This document shows, piece by piece, positions 12,149 to 37,451 of a DNA stretch of 37,451 bases. Location: assembly GCA_027484965.1 (NCBI GenBank), contig JAIXRY010000016.1, positions 1-37,451 of the forward strand. The letters are read 5' to 3'. The stretch comes from a bacterium. GTDB lineage: Bacteria > Patescibacteriota > Minisyncoccia > Phycocordibacterales > UBA9973. The translations under genes and the position numbers were made by a program. The notes beneath the pieces were generated by a model, which did not search any database, was not told where the DNA came from, and worked only from the letters and a program-made list of their open reading frames with translations. The stretch's first letter is position 1, and the number at the start of each line of letters is the position of its first letter.

Positions 12149-12177
12149 GTAGGTAATTGCAAATTGCAATTACCTAC
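12149..12177. repeat. Near-perfect palindrome overlapping the terminase stop codon
   Basis: GTAGGTAATTGCAA-A-TTGCAATTACCTAC: 14-bp arms with a 1-bp spacer. Confidence 0.7.
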
Positions 12178-13819
12178 CCATAAATACAGGCTCGCTTACC
12201 TCTGTGCTACCAATCATTAAGTTTGCCATTTTAGCTACTAGAATAGTATCAGCGGCATCGGAGAAGTGAGTAGTACTTCTTTGGTCTACTTCCTTGTGTT
12301 CATCTCCTTTATCTTTACCAACGCCCTTATTGGTTTCTTTTATCTTGGCATTTTCCATTGAAGTAATAAGCCAATGGCAATTATTGCGGTTAAAACGTGG
12401 CAATGGATCAGAATACCCATCACCTTTAAGGATATTGTTCCAAAGCTCATATCTATCTGACTGCCTAGGTGTTTGACCTATGTAAACTGAGTTAACACGC
12501 CATCCATACTTACGGAATGCCTCTTCTACTGAATCTTTATAAGTGCTTGTTATGTTAGCATAAGCAGCCTTTGCAGTGTGGTCGTAATAGAAGTTAACCA
12601 CTTTAGTAGGGTAAGTATCATAGTAGTTACAGAACAATTGTACAACATCTTGAATAAGACCTGGGTGAGTACGGTAAAAGCAATTCAGAAAGCGAAGCTC
12701 TCTGTACTTGCCTTGGCCAAGGTGTTCTTGTGCTACAACTATTGTATTAATTGAACCACCATAATCGCAAGCAATATCAAGTGCTTTAGATTTGTTTACA
12801 TCGGCATCGTGTTTCCAATTAATGTTTGCAGCTTGACTGAAGTCATAACCCATTGCATCTAAGAAGCTGTTATCATTCATCGAATAGTAGTGCTTATCAG
12901 GCTCCAGCATTGGATAAAAGTCTAGTCCGCCAGTGTTAAGCCTTTGGTTTAATACTGAAGTTTGGTAAGCCATTGGGCTCATATCACGTTTCCAACGCCT
13001 TAGCGTTGCTTCTCCAAGTACTTCAATGTTATCGTAAGAACTGAACTCAGAATAGTAAAAAGTTTTACCTCTAAGTTCACGAAGCATTTTATTAAGCTTT
13101 AGTATATCAATTTGGGCTAAACGCTGCTTAGTAGTGTTTAGCTTGGGTATTTCACCTTGTAAATACATAACCTGTAAAGCTATCTTCCTAATTAAGGCAA
13201 CAAGCTTTACATCCATTTTTTTTTCGTTTGCAAGCAGCCACATACCTTCTTTAGTTGTAGGCATATCAGAAGTAAACAAGCCACCTTGATACTTGGGATT
13301 GCCCTCAAAATGTTGCCTATTACCACGAATAGAAGGGAGAAACTCATCGTCTAGTTTCTTAAGCTTTAGGAATTTAGCCTCATCACCATAATACCAATCC
13401 ACTGAAATACCATTACTACTACCAGGGCGGTCTTGAGAAACCAAGTATATACCAGATCCATTGTACCAAGAAATGTAATATTTAGGATCTATTGGCGTAG
13501 TGTAGGCCTTAGGAAATTTAAACTTCTTAAGTGGCTTTCTTCCAATAAAGAAGTGAACATCACGAACGAAGCCCATTGCCTCCCATTGTGCAACTAATGG
13601 TGGCAAAGTTCTAGTAAGTAGTTGGGAAAAAGTTGCGCCAACTATTGCGCCATTACTACGAGGCATTTCAAGTATACAGCTTAAACAATGCTCAACACCA
13701 GGACCAGTAGTTTTACCGGTACCACGTCCCCAAATACAAGTTGCGGTATGCGGCTTTATTAGGCTGTATTCGTATTGAGCACGATTAAGAGTAATTATTT
13801 TATGTTCATTACTGCTCAT
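12170..13819 (-). CDS. terL: Terminase large subunit
   Basis: 549 aa; Walker A-like CIWGRGTGKTTG, downstream DWYYGDEAKF, and nuclease-like ALDIACDYGGSINTIVVAQE. Confidence 0.85.
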   Translation of the reverse strand: MSSNEHKIITLNRAQYEYSLIKPHTATCIWGRGTGKTTGPGVEHCLSCILEMPRSNGAIVGATFSQLLTRTLPPLVAQWEAMGFVRDVHFFIGRKPLKKFKFPKAYTTPIDPKYYISWYNGSGIYLVSQDRPGSSNGISVDWYYGDEAKFLKLKKLDDEFLPSIRGNRQHFEGNPKYQGGLFTSDMPTTKEGMWLLANEKKMDVKLVALIRKIALQVMYLQGEIPKLNTTKQRLAQIDILKLNKMLRELRGKTFYYSEFSSYDNIEVLGEATLRRWKRDMSPMAYQTSVLNQRLNTGGLDFYPMLEPDKHYYSMNDNSFLDAMGYDFSQAANINWKHDADVNKSKALDIACDYGGSINTIVVAQEHLGQGKYRELRFLNCFYRTHPGLIQDVVQLFCNYYDTYPTKVVNFYYDHTAKAAYANITSTYKDSVEEAFRKYGWRVNSVYIGQTPRQSDRYELWNNILKGDGYSDPLPRFNRNNCHWLITSMENAKIKETNKGVGKDKGDEHKEVDQRSTTHFSDAADTILVAKMANLMIGSTEVSEPVFMGR

Positions 13820-20813: not shown

Positions 20814-21101
20814 CTATTTAAGAGCTTCAGTAACCTTTGTAAAGAAATCAGCTACATTTTTTAAAGCCTTCATATACTCCGCTTCGTTGGTTTCTGCGTA
20901 AGCAGAAAGCAAATGCAGGAATTGCTGATCAGAAATACGGTCACGGGTTACAGTGTAGTTATATCCAATACTGCCATCACCAAGCGTGTATTTATCAATA
21001 CAAACGTAAACTTGCTGATAATCAGATAGAACCTTAACGAACTGCGAACCAAATAGAGGGGTTTCGCGCTTGAAATAAACAGGGAATTTGTGATTTTTCA
21101 T
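20814..21101 (-). CDS. Hypothetical phage protein
   Basis: Start trimmed to MKNHKFPVYFKRET at 21101; the track extension (MSERQKCQ...) is translated from the repeat array. Confidence 0.55.
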   Translation of the reverse strand: MKNHKFPVYFKRETPLFGSQFVKVLSDYQQVYVCIDKYTLGDGSIGYNYTVTRDRISDQQFLHLLSAYAETNEAEYMKALKNVADFFTKVTEALK

Positions 21102-21129: not shown

Positions 21130-21351
21130 TTCTGACACTTCTGACGTTCTGACAACCTATGGTTATCAGATAGTTACGTGTCAGAACTTGGATTTTTTTG
21201 TCAGAAGTGTCAGAACTCCAAATTTTCTTTGGAGTTCTGACAACTTCTGACACTTCTGCCACCTTTACTACTGTATTTATTTACTTTTTTTATTTATTTA
21301 CTTAATTATTAGATAGTTACAAATCTTGTCAGAACGTCAGAAGTGTCAGAA
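21130..21351. repeat. Iteron-like array of GTCAGAA/TTCTGAC with nested inverted repeats (candidate origin or operator)
   Basis: 11 exact copies in 222 bp; 26-bp perfect inverted repeat (21130-21155/21326-21351); central 14-bp hairpin (21209-21222/21228-21241); AT-rich stretch 21265-21325. Confidence 0.85.
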
Positions 21352-21448
21352 GCCGATTTTGAGAAATTTGAAACGTTTTTTTATTTTGGTAAAAAAGAGT
21401 GAGTTAATCAATCAATTAACTCACCTATCTAATAGCCTCAATGCCTTT

Positions 21449-24400
21449 TTAAAAAGGCATTGGAGCTTCTGCTGTATCTACATTATCCGCAGTAGTAACA
21501 GAAGAATCAAAAATCTGATCTTCTAACATTGCATCAGAGGAACCCTTATTGTAGCTAACAACTGCTTTAATATCTACATCAAGCTCATTAAGGTCGAATA
21601 GGTAACCACTGGTTCTTTCTGGCCCAAATCGAACAGCAGAAACAGGTCTAACAAAGGCTTTACTAAGTTTTAGTTTATCTAGTATGGTTTGCTTAGGCAA
21701 ACCGATAGTTCCAAACATATTTCGGTGAATACCTAAATACTCATTGTGTATTTCGTTATACCGAACATAGATTTCGTTGCCTTTAATTATGTAGTGAAGC
21801 CCTTCTCTGATTTGTTTATTGGCAATTCCTGTATTGATACAATTCCAGAAGTTAGTAGTTTCTGAAACTGTGTGCATTTTTTTGGATTGATTGAGGCAAG
21901 AAACCTTAGCATAATCCCTAAACTGTCTAAGAGTAAAAGGGAATTGTAATTCCTTAGAAACAATCTTAAAAATGGCATCTAGAACAGCTACGTTGTTTAC
22001 CATTCTATCTGTGAGTTCAATTCCCTTAAATTCTTCTTTAAGCTCTCTGCTAGAATCTTTAAAAACATCTCTGAACTGTTCTTCAACTGCATTTCTAAGA
22101 TCAAGTAATTGGCACGTAACCGAAGTAATGTTAGCTTGTTGGAATTCTTGCATTAGCAAGAAGTTATCCCTTACTTCTTGGGTTCGCTCGTTTTTATTTA
22201 ATTCAAGCACAATCAACCTTTGAAGTAATGGATTATCGGTAGGATAATCATTACCGGTAACCATTACACCAGATGATATAGGTACGGTTTCCGTACCATA
22301 AGAAGAGTCTTTATTTGCCCTTTTGTAACCAAACCGATCCCATAAGCCTTTCAGCATATTGACTGTTTTATCGTTACCATTACGGAATTCTTCAAGACAA
22401 ATAACCAAGTTCTTAAACTGAGCCATCTCCCTTATTTTGGCTTTATCCGTGTTGGCATCACTGGATAAGTGCAAAGGATCCTGAGGCGTTCCAAACAAAA
22501 ATTGATTGGAACGTATCAGTTCACCTTTTCCAGATCCACCTTCACCATAGAGAAATAGCAAAGGGAAAAAGTTGTACTTGGCAAAAATGATATCAGAGAA
22601 TAAGCAGCTGATAGCAAATAGCATTGCAATCATTCCAGGATCACCGAAAACTTTATTGTGCATTGCTGCCCATTGCTTGAATTCAATGTTTCTAGCTTCA
22701 TACCTCAACTTCTTTTCATTATTGAAAAGCCCTGGATTGTTGTGGTATGATTTATTCCCCGCGGGAATGTAATAAGCACTATCCTTGATTTTAATAATCC
22801 CTTTTTCATCTGTAGGCAAGAATTGCTTATCCATATAAATGCCGTTGCAGAAGGCAAAAAAGCCATCGGCATTTTGCCCAAGTACATCTACTTGGCTACA
22901 GGATAATTCTTGCGCAAATAGTTTGGCTTTAATTCTTTGATGGTCTACAGCTGTACCCATAAAAAGGAAGTTTCCAGCACCTTCAACTAATTCTTTAAAG
23001 CTACCAAAGTTGGTAAGCGTTTTAGTTTCGGCATCAATCGTTTTAACCTTCCCTTTTATGTTGCGTAGCTCCAGCAATCTTCTTGCTGTTTTTCCACTTT
23101 CAATGTGGTAAAGTACCTTCATTGTAAAGTTGGAAAAGTGCTTACGAATAAATTTTTCACCTTTTAACTCAATCTTCCAATACTGATGATTGTATTCAAA
23201 GAATCCATATTCATCTAAATCATCTTTAGGATTGTAATCCTGATTGTAAGCACCTTTTGGAATCCATTCATGTCTACGAGATTCAAGGTCCTCATCGTCG
23301 TCAGAATCAGGTTCTGATACATACCTTTCTCTTTTTTTGGTAGGTTCCTTTGGTACAGGCTTTGGAGGTGTATTTAATGCCCAAGCTGGTAAGAACCTTT
23401 TAATTGTTACTGCAGAATTGTTTGGTTCTAGGATAGAACCAAAACCACTAGGCAGTTCAATTAAAGGTCTAAGGCCTTCAATGATATAATCTGCAAGGTC
23501 AGATTTATCAATCCGATCTTGCAAAAGGTCAATAAGGTGAACATTGGCATTTAATTCTTCCAAAAGAATAAATGCCTTTGGAACCTTTGGGTGGTACTTG
23601 TTGCCCTTGGCATTATACTTTTTACTATCCAATTCAACGGGTACCAACCTTTCAGGATCAGCATCACAAAGAATTAAGATAGGTGGACCATTTAAAATAC
23701 CAGAGCGAAGAAATTCATTTTTCTGAGCTCCGTTTTGTCCACGGCTTGCAATCCAGTTGTATTGAGGATAGAAAAAACTAGCAAGAATTGCTGTTTTTTC
23801 AGATTCTACCACAACAGTAAGCGATTTGTTAACATCGAATAGATGTTCACCAAATAAGCAGAACTGGTAAACTTCACCAGGGTTTCTGCCGGTTATAGAT
23901 CTAGGAAAAAAATCCTTATCCCTTTTTCCGTTAGAACCATATAGAACAGATTTTCTATTGTAAAGCTTGCCATCTCTATCAACAAATAAGAAGCAAGTCC
24001 AAAGCCTATTTTCTTTGTCCAGATAACCACCAACATTCCATTTTTCGAGGTGCTCCGCTGTAACGCCAAGCTGCAAAGCGAAATTATGAAAAGGTGTGTT
24101 ACTGATGCGCATAGCATCAGTAGCAACTTTAGGACTTGGCCACAAGACTACAGTCTTGGGCATAGGCACCTTTTCAATATTGAGCGGTGCCAAGTTGCTG
24201 AATTCAGCAGCTTGCTTTAAAGCTTCTTTAAAGTCGCAATTGTTCGCCTTGGCTATAAAATCAATAGCGTTTAAATTTTCGTTACCATCTGCAAAATCCT
24301 TATAATACCAAGTACCAGAACTAGCTTGAAACAAGTTAGAACTGGCATTTTTCTCATCCCGAAAAACGGACTTGAACAAAGTCCCTTTTCGGTACGGGTT

Positions 24401-24490
24401 AGGCAAGTGAGGGATAAGGCGGTAAAATATATCTAGGCCACCATCGGTGGCTCTTAGGATTTCTTCTTTATCAAGGTTATTAACACTCAT
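21449..24490 (-). CDS. Primase-helicase fusion (TOPRIM plus SF3/D5-like ATPase)
   Basis: 1013 aa; TVVVESEKTAILASF...ILILCDADPE (TOPRIM-like); FLYGEGGSGKGELIRSNQFLFG (Walker A), VICLEEFRNG, VMVTGNDYP. Confidence 0.8.
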   Translation of the reverse strand: MSVNNLDKEEILRATDGGLDIFYRLIPHLPNPYRKGTLFKSVFRDEKNASSNLFQASSGTWYYKDFADGNENLNAIDFIAKANNCDFKEALKQAAEFSNLAPLNIEKVPMPKTVVLWPSPKVATDAMRISNTPFHNFALQLGVTAEHLEKWNVGGYLDKENRLWTCFLFVDRDGKLYNRKSVLYGSNGKRDKDFFPRSITGRNPGEVYQFCLFGEHLFDVNKSLTVVVESEKTAILASFFYPQYNWIASRGQNGAQKNEFLRSGILNGPPILILCDADPERLVPVELDSKKYNAKGNKYHPKVPKAFILLEELNANVHLIDLLQDRIDKSDLADYIIEGLRPLIELPSGFGSILEPNNSAVTIKRFLPAWALNTPPKPVPKEPTKKRERYVSEPDSDDDEDLESRRHEWIPKGAYNQDYNPKDDLDEYGFFEYNHQYWKIELKGEKFIRKHFSNFTMKVLYHIESGKTARRLLELRNIKGKVKTIDAETKTLTNFGSFKELVEGAGNFLFMGTAVDHQRIKAKLFAQELSCSQVDVLGQNADGFFAFCNGIYMDKQFLPTDEKGIIKIKDSAYYIPAGNKSYHNNPGLFNNEKKLRYEARNIEFKQWAAMHNKVFGDPGMIAMLFAISCLFSDIIFAKYNFFPLLFLYGEGGSGKGELIRSNQFLFGTPQDPLHLSSDANTDKAKIREMAQFKNLVICLEEFRNGNDKTVNMLKGLWDRFGYKRANKDSSYGTETVPISSGVMVTGNDYPTDNPLLQRLIVLELNKNERTQEVRDNFLLMQEFQQANITSVTCQLLDLRNAVEEQFRDVFKDSSRELKEEFKGIELTDRMVNNVAVLDAIFKIVSKELQFPFTLRQFRDYAKVSCLNQSKKMHTVSETTNFWNCINTGIANKQIREGLHYIIKGNEIYVRYNEIHNEYLGIHRNMFGTIGLPKQTILDKLKLSKAFVRPVSAVRFGPERTSGYLFDLNELDVDIKAVVSYNKGSSDAMLEDQIFDSSVTTADNVDTAEAPMPF

Positions 24491-26690: not shown

Positions 26691-27497
26691 TTATTCACAG
26701 ATGTTATAGATAGAAGTACAAGTGCTTTCATCTAGCTCAAACATTTTAATTTGGTCGGGTTTTGTAATGTGTTTAACTACTTCTTTAATTGAAGCAATTT
26801 TTTTACTTGGGATATAGTTAGGACCGCAAAAGGTTCTACCTATTTCAATCTCCATTTGGGCTATTTTTTCAATAATCTCAGGATAACTTAATGATATCCT
26901 TTTTATCTCTCCTTGATTACAGAATACACAAGGAAAGCAACCAACTCTTTTAAATCCTTTCTTGTATAAAGGATTAGGTTTTATATTATGCTTTTTATGT
27001 ATAATAAAAACCTCATCAGCAGTAAGTTCAAAAATAGGTCGAAACACAAAAGCGGTATTTCCTGCTTTTAACCATGCTCTAGTATCTTTAATTCTGTAGG
27101 CACCTTTCTCTAAACCAAAGTAATCAGCAAATACATTAAGCTTTGACCTTGCTCTGCTTTCATCCTTCCTTATACCTTGATAAATTTTGAATTCACCAGA
27201 TTGGGCTAAAAGCCAATCTACAAAAGGCTTGATTTTTAATTCACTTGTACAAAAGCGAGCATTAAGACTGGGAAAGCGTTTCTTTTTTCTTGCTAAATCG
27301 TAAAAGCCTAATTCAGGATAAAGCCTCGTTATTTTAATGTTTAAAGCGGTTTCCAGATACTCTAAATACTCGTAAGTTTCTTTTGCTTCATTACCTGTAT
27401 CACAAAACACCGCTGTAAACTCAACTCCTTGTGACCATAACAATATGGCAATAGCACTGCTATCTTTACCACCAGATATTTGAACAATCTTTCTCAT
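26691..27497 (-). CDS. PAPS reductase / adenine nucleotide alpha-hydrolase-like protein
   Basis: IVQISGGKDSSAIAILLW (SGGKDS PP-loop), RFCTSELK, RPIFELTADEVF, GCFPCVFCNQGE; start trimmed from 27512. Confidence 0.8.
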   Translation of the reverse strand: MRKIVQISGGKDSSAIAILLWSQGVEFTAVFCDTGNEAKETYEYLEYLETALNIKITRLYPELGFYDLARKKKRFPSLNARFCTSELKIKPFVDWLLAQSGEFKIYQGIRKDESRARSKLNVFADYFGLEKGAYRIKDTRAWLKAGNTAFVFRPIFELTADEVFIIHKKHNIKPNPLYKKGFKRVGCFPCVFCNQGEIKRISLSYPEIIEKIAQMEIEIGRTFCGPNYIPSKKIASIKEVVKHITKPDQIKMFELDESTCTSIYNICE

Positions 27498-27799
27498 TCT
27501 TGCCCCTCCCACTTATCTAAAAGTTCAAAAATCAGAAGGGTAATTATTGGCGCAGGAGGCGTATTAGCCTCAAAAGCCAATTGGTAAGAAGTATCAGGAA
27601 AAAGCGGCTCAAAGCTGCTTTGGTGCTTTTCCACTGCGATAACTTTGGCATAGCCAAGTTTATCGCCATCCTTGTTTCTAAGCTCTACCATATCATGAAT
27701 TTGATAGGATAGTTTTAGGCTATGTGCACATTTGAAATAGAAACCAATGTCCCAAAGCTTTCTTTCAGCATCGTTCAGTTTTACAACTTTATAAGCCAT
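27494..27799 (-). CDS. Hypothetical phage protein
   Basis: 101 aa ORF coupled to the PAPS reductase-like gene. Confidence 0.55.
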   Translation of the reverse strand: MAYKVVKLNDAERKLWDIGFYFKCAHSLKLSYQIHDMVELRNKDGDKLGYAKVIAVEKHQSSFEPLFPDTSYQLAFEANTPPAPIITLLIFELLDKWEGQE

Positions 27800-29770: not shown

Positions 29771-30226
29771 ATGAATGCAGAACAGCGTGTAAATCTGATG
29801 TTTATCCAGTCAGGAATGACCAAAAAAGAATGGTCTAGTATAATTGGGATTCACGAAAACAACATAATAGCTATTATTAAGGGAAGGAAAAACGCTACAC
29901 CTGCTATTATGAAGAAAATAGCTGAAGCTTCTCCAGAATATAACCCTGATTGGGTAATTCGAGGGCTTGGCGCTATGCTTACCGATGGCACTCCAGAGCC
30001 TTCGGTTGCAAATTCGGTTGCACAAAATGAACCTGAAAACGAGGCTATAAGTGTTAAAATGCTTGATTTTGTAATGAAGGAAAATGCTTATTTAAAGGCT
30101 AAACTAGACGAGGCACTCGCTATTATAGGTAATCAAGCAAGATTATCGGGAAAGCTTAACCTGCAACCGAATGCTGGTTATGCTAAAGAAGTAAAGTTCA
30201 TTCCTGAACTTGCTTCGGTTGCATAA
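29771..30226 (+). CDS. HTH phage repressor-like protein
   Basis: MNAEQRVNLMFIQSGMTKKEWSSIIGIHENNIIAIIKGRKNATPAIMKKIAEASPEYNPDWVIRGLGAM; HTH then C-terminal coiled coil. Confidence 0.75.
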   Translation: MNAEQRVNLMFIQSGMTKKEWSSIIGIHENNIIAIIKGRKNATPAIMKKIAEASPEYNPDWVIRGLGAMLTDGTPEPSVANSVAQNEPENEAISVKMLDFVMKENAYLKAKLDEALAIIGNQARLSGKLNLQPNAGYAKEVKFIPELASVA

Positions 30227-35543: not shown

Positions 35544-37451
35544 TACGATGTGCCGAAAATTCTAGGGTTAACACGATTATTTGTAACAGGAATACCAGAA
35601 GGATAACGAGCATCTAAAGCATCGTCTAGGAACTTGGCTTGCGTTTGATACGAAAGAACTAACGCTTTTTCGCGTGGGTTCTGAAGTAGCATCTTAATAG
35701 CTTGTAGCTCTGTTAAAATAGCTAAGTCAAGGCTAGAAGTATTCAGCCTTGGTGGCATTTTCACTGTGCTACCACCATCGGCAAAAGCCGCCATTTTTGA
35801 GCTGCTTTTTCTACCAGTTCTGAAAGCTTCAATCATTCTTACAGAATCCGCTACTAGCGGTTCTGAAAGCAAATAGTTAGGCACAATATATTCGGCACCT
35901 TTTTCGCCTACTAGGGCGTAGTAAGGTTTAGAAACTACACCACCATCTGCAATACTGCCACCAGTTTGAGCAATACCAGGTATTGCCTTGGTGGCACCAC
36001 CAAGTGCAAATGCTGGTGGCTCGGGTGGTGCTTGGCTATCAATTAAAGCCAATTGGCTACCAGTAGTAATAGCAGCCAAAGCGATACCAATTACAGGCGT
36101 GAATTTGATACTTAGATCCATGGCTAGAAGAGCGCCTTTAATTAAGGCCTCAATTCTTGCCATCTGCTGCCTTTTCTCAAATAGAGCCACCTCCATTTGA
36201 TACTGTTTTAAGGCATACTCCTTTTCAATACGATCCTTTTCAGAATTATACTTTTCCTCAGTGATAGTCTTGGCATCAAGGCTATCTTTGAGGTGTTTTA
36301 ATTCAGCATTTTTTACCCTTTTCAACTCATTCATAGAGTTGTTATAATCAGCTTGTTGTTGGTTTGCGATAGCATCCAACATCATAAAAAACACGTTTGC
36401 AATATCATTTGCAGCCTGTACGGCTGCCTCTACCTCAGCTTGGTAGGTGTTTTCAGCCTGATTTTTAACATCTGCATAATATTCATTGGTAAGGTTTGCT
36501 TTATCCCTTAAAAAATTCTCATGCAGAATTTTTTGTTGCTCTACATCGTCTTTTGCAGCCTCCAAACGAATAGCATATTCGGTTGTAAGCTGTTTCATTC
36601 TGCCCTTAAAAAGGTCAGCTTCAGCGGCATTGTATTCTTGCGCGGTAGTGGCTTGCGCCTTTCTTCTCTCAGCTGTAGCCACTTCCAAAGCAGCCTCATT
36701 AGCAAGTTCTGTACTTAGTTCTTGTAAAAGTTCTTGCTGCCTTTCAGCGTGGTAGCCTTTTTCATCGGCTGCTATTTCCTCAAGCTTGCGCTTGTACTTT
36801 TGCATAGCTTCACTTTCAACCATAGAAAGCAGCTTTCTATCGCTTATACGCCTACGAGCTTCTTCAACCTCCCTGTCTGCTACGGTTGCAGCTTGCGCCC
36901 GTTCACGGTCGTATTTATCAACAATAGAGGCATTATATTCATCAACTGCCCTATCTTCAATAGCCCGAATTTCATCCAAGTATTTTTCATTACGTTTCTT
37001 GGCTTCTTTTAATGCCTTAGCTTCTGCTTTAGCCTTTTTTGAAGCTGCTTTATCATCGCCAAGTGATTTGTATTCTTTGGTTTCTCCGCTTGCTTTCTTA
37101 GGTCCAGAAGCTACATTTTCCTGCATCCCAAAGGCTTTTTGAAAATCAGCTTCATAGGTTTTCATTTGCTCTAAAGCTGCTTTTAAATCACCATTTCTAA
37201 GGTCTTGCGCTCTTTTAGCCCAATTACCAATTACAAATTGGTCTTGATCAAGGCTCGCTAACAATCTTTTTCTTTCAATCTCTAATTCTTCATTATCAGT
37301 AAACTGCTTATTTCTTAATTGCTCAATCAATTGAGCAGATTGCTGCTCACTGGTCAAGCCTTCTTTTAAAATAAGACCTAACTTTTTTCTGCTTTTAGCA
37401 ATTTTCTCATCCCTTGAAATAGTTCTTTCTGCTGCATAGCCTTCAAATTCA
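35543..37451 (-). CDS. Tape measure protein, C-terminal part (about 1151 aa in total with 1..1666)
   Basis: Long Ala/Glu/Lys-rich coiled coil plus hydrophobic region (ALIKGALLAMDLSIKFTPVIGIALAAITTGSQLALI). The track's Met at 37357 is internal; the frame continues upstream. Confidence 0.88.
   Translation of the reverse strand, partial: EFEGYAAERTISRDEKIAKSRKKLGLILKEGLTSEQQSAQLIEQLRNKQFTDNEELEIERKRLLASLDQDQFVIGNWAKRAQDLRNGDLKAALEQMKTYEADFQKAFGMQENVASGPKKASGETKEYKSLGDDKAASKKAKAEAKALKEAKKRNEKYLDEIRAIEDRAVDEYNASIVDKYDRERAQAATVADREVEEARRRISDRKLLSMVESEAMQKYKRKLEEIAADEKGYHAERQQELLQELSTELANEAALEVATAERRKAQATTAQEYNAAEADLFKGRMKQLTTEYAIRLEAAKDDVEQQKILHENFLRDKANLTNEYYADVKNQAENTYQAEVEAAVQAANDIANVFFMMLDAIANQQQADYNNSMNELKRVKNAELKHLKDSLDAKTITEEKYNSEKDRIEKEYALKQYQMEVALFEKRQQMARIEALIKGALLAMDLSIKFTPVIGIALAAITTGSQLALIDSQAPPEPPAFALGGATKAIPGIAQTGGSIADGGVVSKPYYALVGEKGAEYIVPNYLLSEPLVADSVRMIEAFRTGRKSSSKMAAFADGGSTVKMPPRLNTSSLDLAILTELQAIKMLLQNPREKALVLSYQTQAKFLDDALDARYPSGIPVTNNRVNPRIFGTS
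37333..37451. repeat. 119-bp terminal direct repeat, second copy
   Basis: Same 119 bp as 1-119; implies a circular or circularly permuted molecule of about 37,332 bp. Confidence 0.97.

Follow-up and report, generated by a model that had tools for sequence, protein, structure and literature searches.

The primase-helicase gene of the phage genome analysed here (a stretch of 37,451 nt, referred to as the window) lies on the minus strand (21449..24490, 1013 aa) and is followed past its end at 21449 by an intrinsic terminator (21398..21425, minus strand; 12-bp stem, 4-nt loop and T run), which closes the primase-helicase transcript ahead of an array of short repeats. The array begins 98 bp past the primase-helicase stop codon, so that the earlier placement of the repeats beside this gene (made in the sequence-only reading) holds and can be made more precise: the side is the downstream (3') one. 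The next gene downstream (20814..21101, minus strand) encodes a short protein without family match; its listed open reading frame begins at a TTG within the array (21155), and an alternative ATG at 21101 appears to be the likelier start, with which the array would be wholly non-coding. The array sits at the junction of the replication genes and the structural (late) operon, and a promoter-like site is predicted at 21332-21305, overlapping its first block.

On recount, every coordinate given earlier for the 11 exact copies of GTCAGAA/TTCTGAC in 222 bp (21130-21351) was exact. The whole window contains 17 copies (4.4 expected, sd 1.8), a number reached in 0 of 100 shuffles, and 6 of these lie scattered elsewhere, about as many as expected by chance; the array is also the densest 7-mer cluster of the window (next best 5 copies, shuffle maximum 5). 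The repeated unit, the iteron, is the 8-bp TGTCAGAA. Read in gene direction, the array opens with outer block 1 (21326..21351; GTCAGAA at 21328, 21336 and 21345), followed by an AT-rich block (21262..21325; 83% A+T as compared to 62% for the window) that is a proposed DNA-unwinding element, by inner block 1 (21235..21261; TTCTGAC at 21235 and 21245, and a one-mismatch TTCTGCC at 21254-21260), by inner block 2 (21180..21215; GTCAGAA at 21180, 21200 and 21209) and by outer block 2 (21130..21155; TTCTGAC at 21130, 21139 and 21147). The two outer triplets form the perfect 26-bp inverted repeat that had been described, extendable to 29 bp at 97% identity (21127-21155/21326-21354). The central hairpin (21208..21242), which comprises two facing iterons, is perfect as claimed, with arms of 15 bp instead of 14 (21208-21222/21228-21242, 5-nt loop), and its stem does continue past a bulge (21199-21215/21245-21261, 94%). 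The 10-mer AGATAGTTAC indeed occurs twice, at 21168 and, within the AT-rich block, at 21311. Folded as single-stranded DNA, the region reaches -55 kcal/mol, as compared to -16 +/- 3 in shuffles (z = -12).

The ends of the window overlap exactly over 119 bp (1-119 versus 37333-37451), indicating that the phage genome is circular and complete at 37,332 bp. Since its genes include those for an integrase (whose arm domain is of Bacteroidota type), an HTH regulator (a repressor-like gene at 29771), a head maturation protease (SppA-type) and a portal-like protein, together with tail-size proteins, we read the 37.3-kb circle as the genome of a temperate tailed phage; a PICI satellite was rejected on account of these virion genes and the integrase. 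The phage also carries a gene of the PAPS-reductase family (26691-27512; Pfam 3e-26). Its contig was assigned to a bin of 796 kb and 97.6% completeness, the relatives of which have genomes of 0.4-0.9 Mb. Given that the relatives of the phage genes belong to Bacteroidota, that Shine-Dalgarno sites are nearly absent from the phage genes (1/21) and that the phage stands apart from the rest of the bin in tetranucleotide profile (r 0.82-0.85, as compared to mostly at least 0.9), we consider that the contig was probably mis-binned.

The N-terminal region of the primase-helicase matches DUF6371 (toprim-like; Pfam 1.7e-16) and is accompanied by an AAA+ helicase domain with a Walker A motif (GEGGSGK, residues 649-655); its PHROG matches are 22657/1139. 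An AlphaFold2 model of residues 411-1013, built from 15 relatives (pLDDT 81), predicts at the C-terminus (approximately residues 900-966) a strand-strand-helix-helix-strand-strand order, i.e. a winged-helix topology. The best Foldseek matches in the PDB were SaPIbov1 Rep (8tch, E 4.6e-15) and SCCmec Cch (5dgk, E 1e-14), both spanning nearly the whole model at a TM of ~0.5-0.58 with large rmsd; the poxvirus D5/E5 helicases ranked behind them among solved structures, and the P4 alpha protein was not among the top fold matches listed. SaPI Rep/Cch were not reached when PDB sequences were searched with a profile, so the relation of the primase-helicase to them is one of predicted fold, and it is at this level that the protein would qualify as an initiator helicase of the SaPIbov1 Rep/Cch type with a C-terminal DNA-binding domain. 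A weak DUF927 signal was found in two members of the helicase family (Pseudomonas phage PMBT3, considered as a DUF927 comparison, was set aside because it is large and encodes a DNA polymerase of its own).

Searches of phage and plasmid DNA recovered no close relative of the window (a weak match to a Bacteroides phage, H41, was discarded, as it was confined to the AT-rich part and the region there is without array), and a contig scan of genomes with a single-protein query gave no match. Protein relatives of the helicase part were found in Flavobacterium, Cellulophaga and Porphyromonas phages, in fecal phage contigs, in Persicobacter replicons and, at 43% identity, in a phage reported from Microcystis; further ones belong to Bacteroidota genomes, where they lie in chromosomal prophages or on phage contigs. 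We scanned 38 helicase loci whose flanks were usable (from phages and prophages, of Bacteroidota in nearly all cases) through an unsupervised search for the densest 7-mer on either strand within 300 bp. At least 5 copies of one 7-mer were present downstream of the helicase in 31/38 loci, versus 2/38 within the gene and 2/26 upstream; the clusters start mostly 12-100 bp past the helicase stop codon, and in about six loci the array lies 1.4-3.4 kb from the helicase gene, indicating that strict adjacency is not universal. Inspection showed that the automatic matches at two loci (L030 and L074) were other repeats, confirmed that arrays are nevertheless present there, and added divergent arrays at three more (L013, L052 and L073), bringing the count to about 34/38; no array was seen in the flank examined of L022, L051, L078 and L079. 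The sequence-only reading would have been contradicted had the array been missing from relatives that keep the gene; analogous arrays, with other repeat sequences, are instead present in most of them. At seven loci fetched once the rule was formed, arrays were clear in three cases and degenerate in two.

Among the repeats located immediately past the helicase gene are GTTGAGA (phages 1H, 6H and laban6-1), GTAGGAA (four Flavobacterium prophages) and TCCAACA or TCCTACA (two fecal contigs). The phage reported from Microcystis (TCGGACA) and those of Porphyromonas (TCCAACA, TCCTACA) have their cluster 1.4-3.4 kb further downstream. The common order of blocks, in gene direction, is inverted iterons, AT-rich block, direct iterons, hairpin or palindrome, inverted iterons, spacer and direct iterons (<<< AT-rich >>> hairpin << spacer >>>); one locus (L034) has just two opposed sets around an AT-rich block, which is the plain PICI form. 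The iterons of the main group vary around TGTNNGAA (TGTCAGAA, TGTCCGAA, TGCCCGAA, TGTTGGAA, TGTAGGAA and TGTTGAGAA) and those of distant members depart further (TGTTCCAT, TGTTGTAA and TGAGGAAA). The layout and position of the array are conserved between lineages; the iteron DNA is not. The string TTAGATAGTTA occurs in the AT-rich blocks of both the window (21311) and the Porphyromonas phage arrays (L014/L024), either as a shared unwinding element or by chance in AT-rich DNA.

Several of these loci merit separate mention. Three contigs of one genome (G400; L052, L053 and L054) carry related helicases and the same AAAGTAAC iteron, one of the three arrays being more decayed than the others, and they may be prophages that share an origin type and reside together. 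The phage reported from Microcystis (L010, MZ447863.1) closely resembles a phage of a Sphingobacteriaceae bin (L026, JAUXNJ010000028.1), with 89% identity in the helicase AAA+ domain and the array at the same 2.8-3.0 kb distance; its true host may be a Bacteroidota bacterium living with Microcystis. In Flavobacterium phage 6H (L025, KC959568.1) the helicase frame, intact in 1H, is split in two, through either a sequencing error or a real frameshift.

Repeat clusters can also mark packaging (pac/cos) or partition sites, and the array could be one of these instead of an origin. We regard this as highly improbable, since the terminase-like gene (12170-13819, named from its own sequence and gene order, without PHROG match) lies 7 kb off, the window proteins scanned include no ParB-like one, and arrays occur also in chromosomal prophages and at the Persicobacter replicon loci, always with the helicase. 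Another explanation is that of a large operator, in which the iterons would bind a phage transcription factor controlling the late operon from the next gene onwards; the location of the array at the junction of the replication and structural operons, upstream of a gene that reads away from it, and the promoter-like site are in its favour. An AT-rich block between inverted sets is however not needed in an operator, and the genes downstream of the array differ among relatives, the helicase upstream being the constant partner. Moreover, GTCAGAA is absent between 23307 and 30761, including the intergenic region before the repressor-like HTH gene at 29771, which counts against an operator in general and led us to reject a lysogeny operator in particular.

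The divergence of the iterons bears on the same question. Across 28 loci, with iteron consensus strings assigned by hand from printed arrays and with Mantel tests that are liberal under shared ancestry, winged-helix distance correlated with iteron edit distance (r 0.46), and a correlation persisted once AAA+ distance was controlled for (partial Mantel r 0.21, p 0.006). In the reverse test, with the winged helix as control, AAA+ distance was not significant (p 0.29), and the winged-helix signal controlled for the preceding helical domain was borderline (p 0.055). We take this apparent tracking of iteron divergence by winged-helix divergence as supporting evidence only. It argues further against the operator, as the iteron sequence follows a domain of the helicase, and we consider that explanation very unlikely.

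Taken together, these observations point to the array as the origin of a PICI/SaPI-type replicon residing in a full temperate phage, for which the upstream primase-helicase would serve as self-loading initiator (a reading to which we assign a probability of roughly 0.88). That the repeats were a candidate replication origin had been proposed from the sequence alone, and this is now strongly supported by the arrays beside the same helicase in relatives and by the SaPIbov1 Rep/Cch-like fold; further support comes from the position of the array, apparently non-coding and placed after the terminator of the replication transcript. The initiator, which had been considered not obvious, is probably the primase-helicase itself, acting through its C-terminal winged helix, because its predicted fold best matches SaPIbov1 Rep and Cch, and the SaPI Reps recognise iterons downstream of their own gene. 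We infer the steps of binding, ring assembly, melting, priming and directionality as follows: the C-terminal winged helix would bind the 8-bp iterons, helicase rings would assemble on the oppositely oriented iteron blocks, the AT-rich block would be melted (with the central hairpin possibly extruded), the helicase would load itself on the opened strands (self-loading rather than loading of the host DnaB being expected since the initiator is an AAA+ helicase), and bidirectional theta replication would start once the prophage is induced or a cell infected. A point against this reading is that GC skew, uninformative as it was, does not turn at the array; its detrended extremes fall at 28.7 and 35.8 kb.

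An origin of this kind might have a second role, with the initiator using the iterons to repress transcription of the neighbouring operon or to set its timing. Initiator autoregulation is common in iteron replicons, and the position of the array just ahead of the late operon, together with the overlap between the promoter-like site and outer block 1, would suit such a dual site. On the other hand, the promoter of the initiator gene itself lies outside the array, and the array of several relatives lies kilobases from the helicase gene, so that we consider the dual site a possible but rather unlikely extension of the origin.

The closest parallel to the proposed origin is found in the pri-rep-ori segments of SaPIs and PICIs (e.g. 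SaPIbov1 Rep, EcCICFT073). The C-terminal domain of SaPI Rep recognises an iteron origin directly downstream of its own gene, and SaPIbov1 Rep and Cch (DUF927) are related proteins; for SCC elements no origin had been identified before the study of Cch2, which found a putative one downstream of cch2 (PMC7581432). In PICIs the origin directly follows the initiator gene on its 3' side and always has an AT-rich region with an iteron set on either side; their pri-rep-ori segments are capable of autonomous replication and drive that of a plasmid (PMC6092414). According to the PICI authors, no other known replicon is organised in this way. The window shares with these elements an AAA+ initiator helicase with a predicted SaPIbov1-Rep-like fold (SCCmec Cch being the second best fold match), the location directly 3' of the rep gene (shared by most relatives as well) and iteron sets flanking an AT-rich region, as also seen in the relatives. 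There are also differences: the phage and its relatives usually have four iteron blocks and a central hairpin, whereas SaPIs and PICIs have two blocks; the primase region is toprim-like (DUF6371) in the phage and of the archaeo-eukaryotic type in SaPIbov1; the window is the entire genome of a tailed temperate phage that encodes virion proteins and an integrase itself, and a PICI is a satellite; and the phage family occurs in Bacteroidota, as opposed to Firmicutes or Gammaproteobacteria. P4 alpha resembles the phage protein in uniting primase, helicase and (by proposal for the phage protein) origin recognition in one polypeptide, but P4 needs two separate repeat sites (ori and crr) and a P4-type ori/crr arrangement was rejected, as the window holds a single cluster (its next best 7-mer cluster having 5 copies). 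Classical iteron plasmids (RepA/RepE type) likewise combine iterons with an AT-rich unwinding region, yet rely on a small Rep that recruits the host DnaB, while the phage has 8-bp iterons in inverted blocks and a proposed self-loading helicase.

In the open-licence papers searched we found no description of such origins in Bacteroidota phages, and origins of these phages in general appear to be undescribed there. The shared layout offers a rule for finding Bacteroidota phage origins (inverted 8-mers around an AT-rich block just 3' of a Rep/Cch-like helicase), and cultured relatives exist in Flavobacterium phages 1H, 6H and laban6-1 and in Cellulophaga phage Ingeline. More tentatively, and with somewhat less than an even chance of being right, we propose that the SaPI/PICI replicon is not specific to satellites, that it may be common by descent to many Bacteroidota tailed phages in an elaborated four-block form, and that its fast-changing pair of iteron and winged helix may act as an exchangeable identity code, which would keep co-resident prophages from firing each other's origins.
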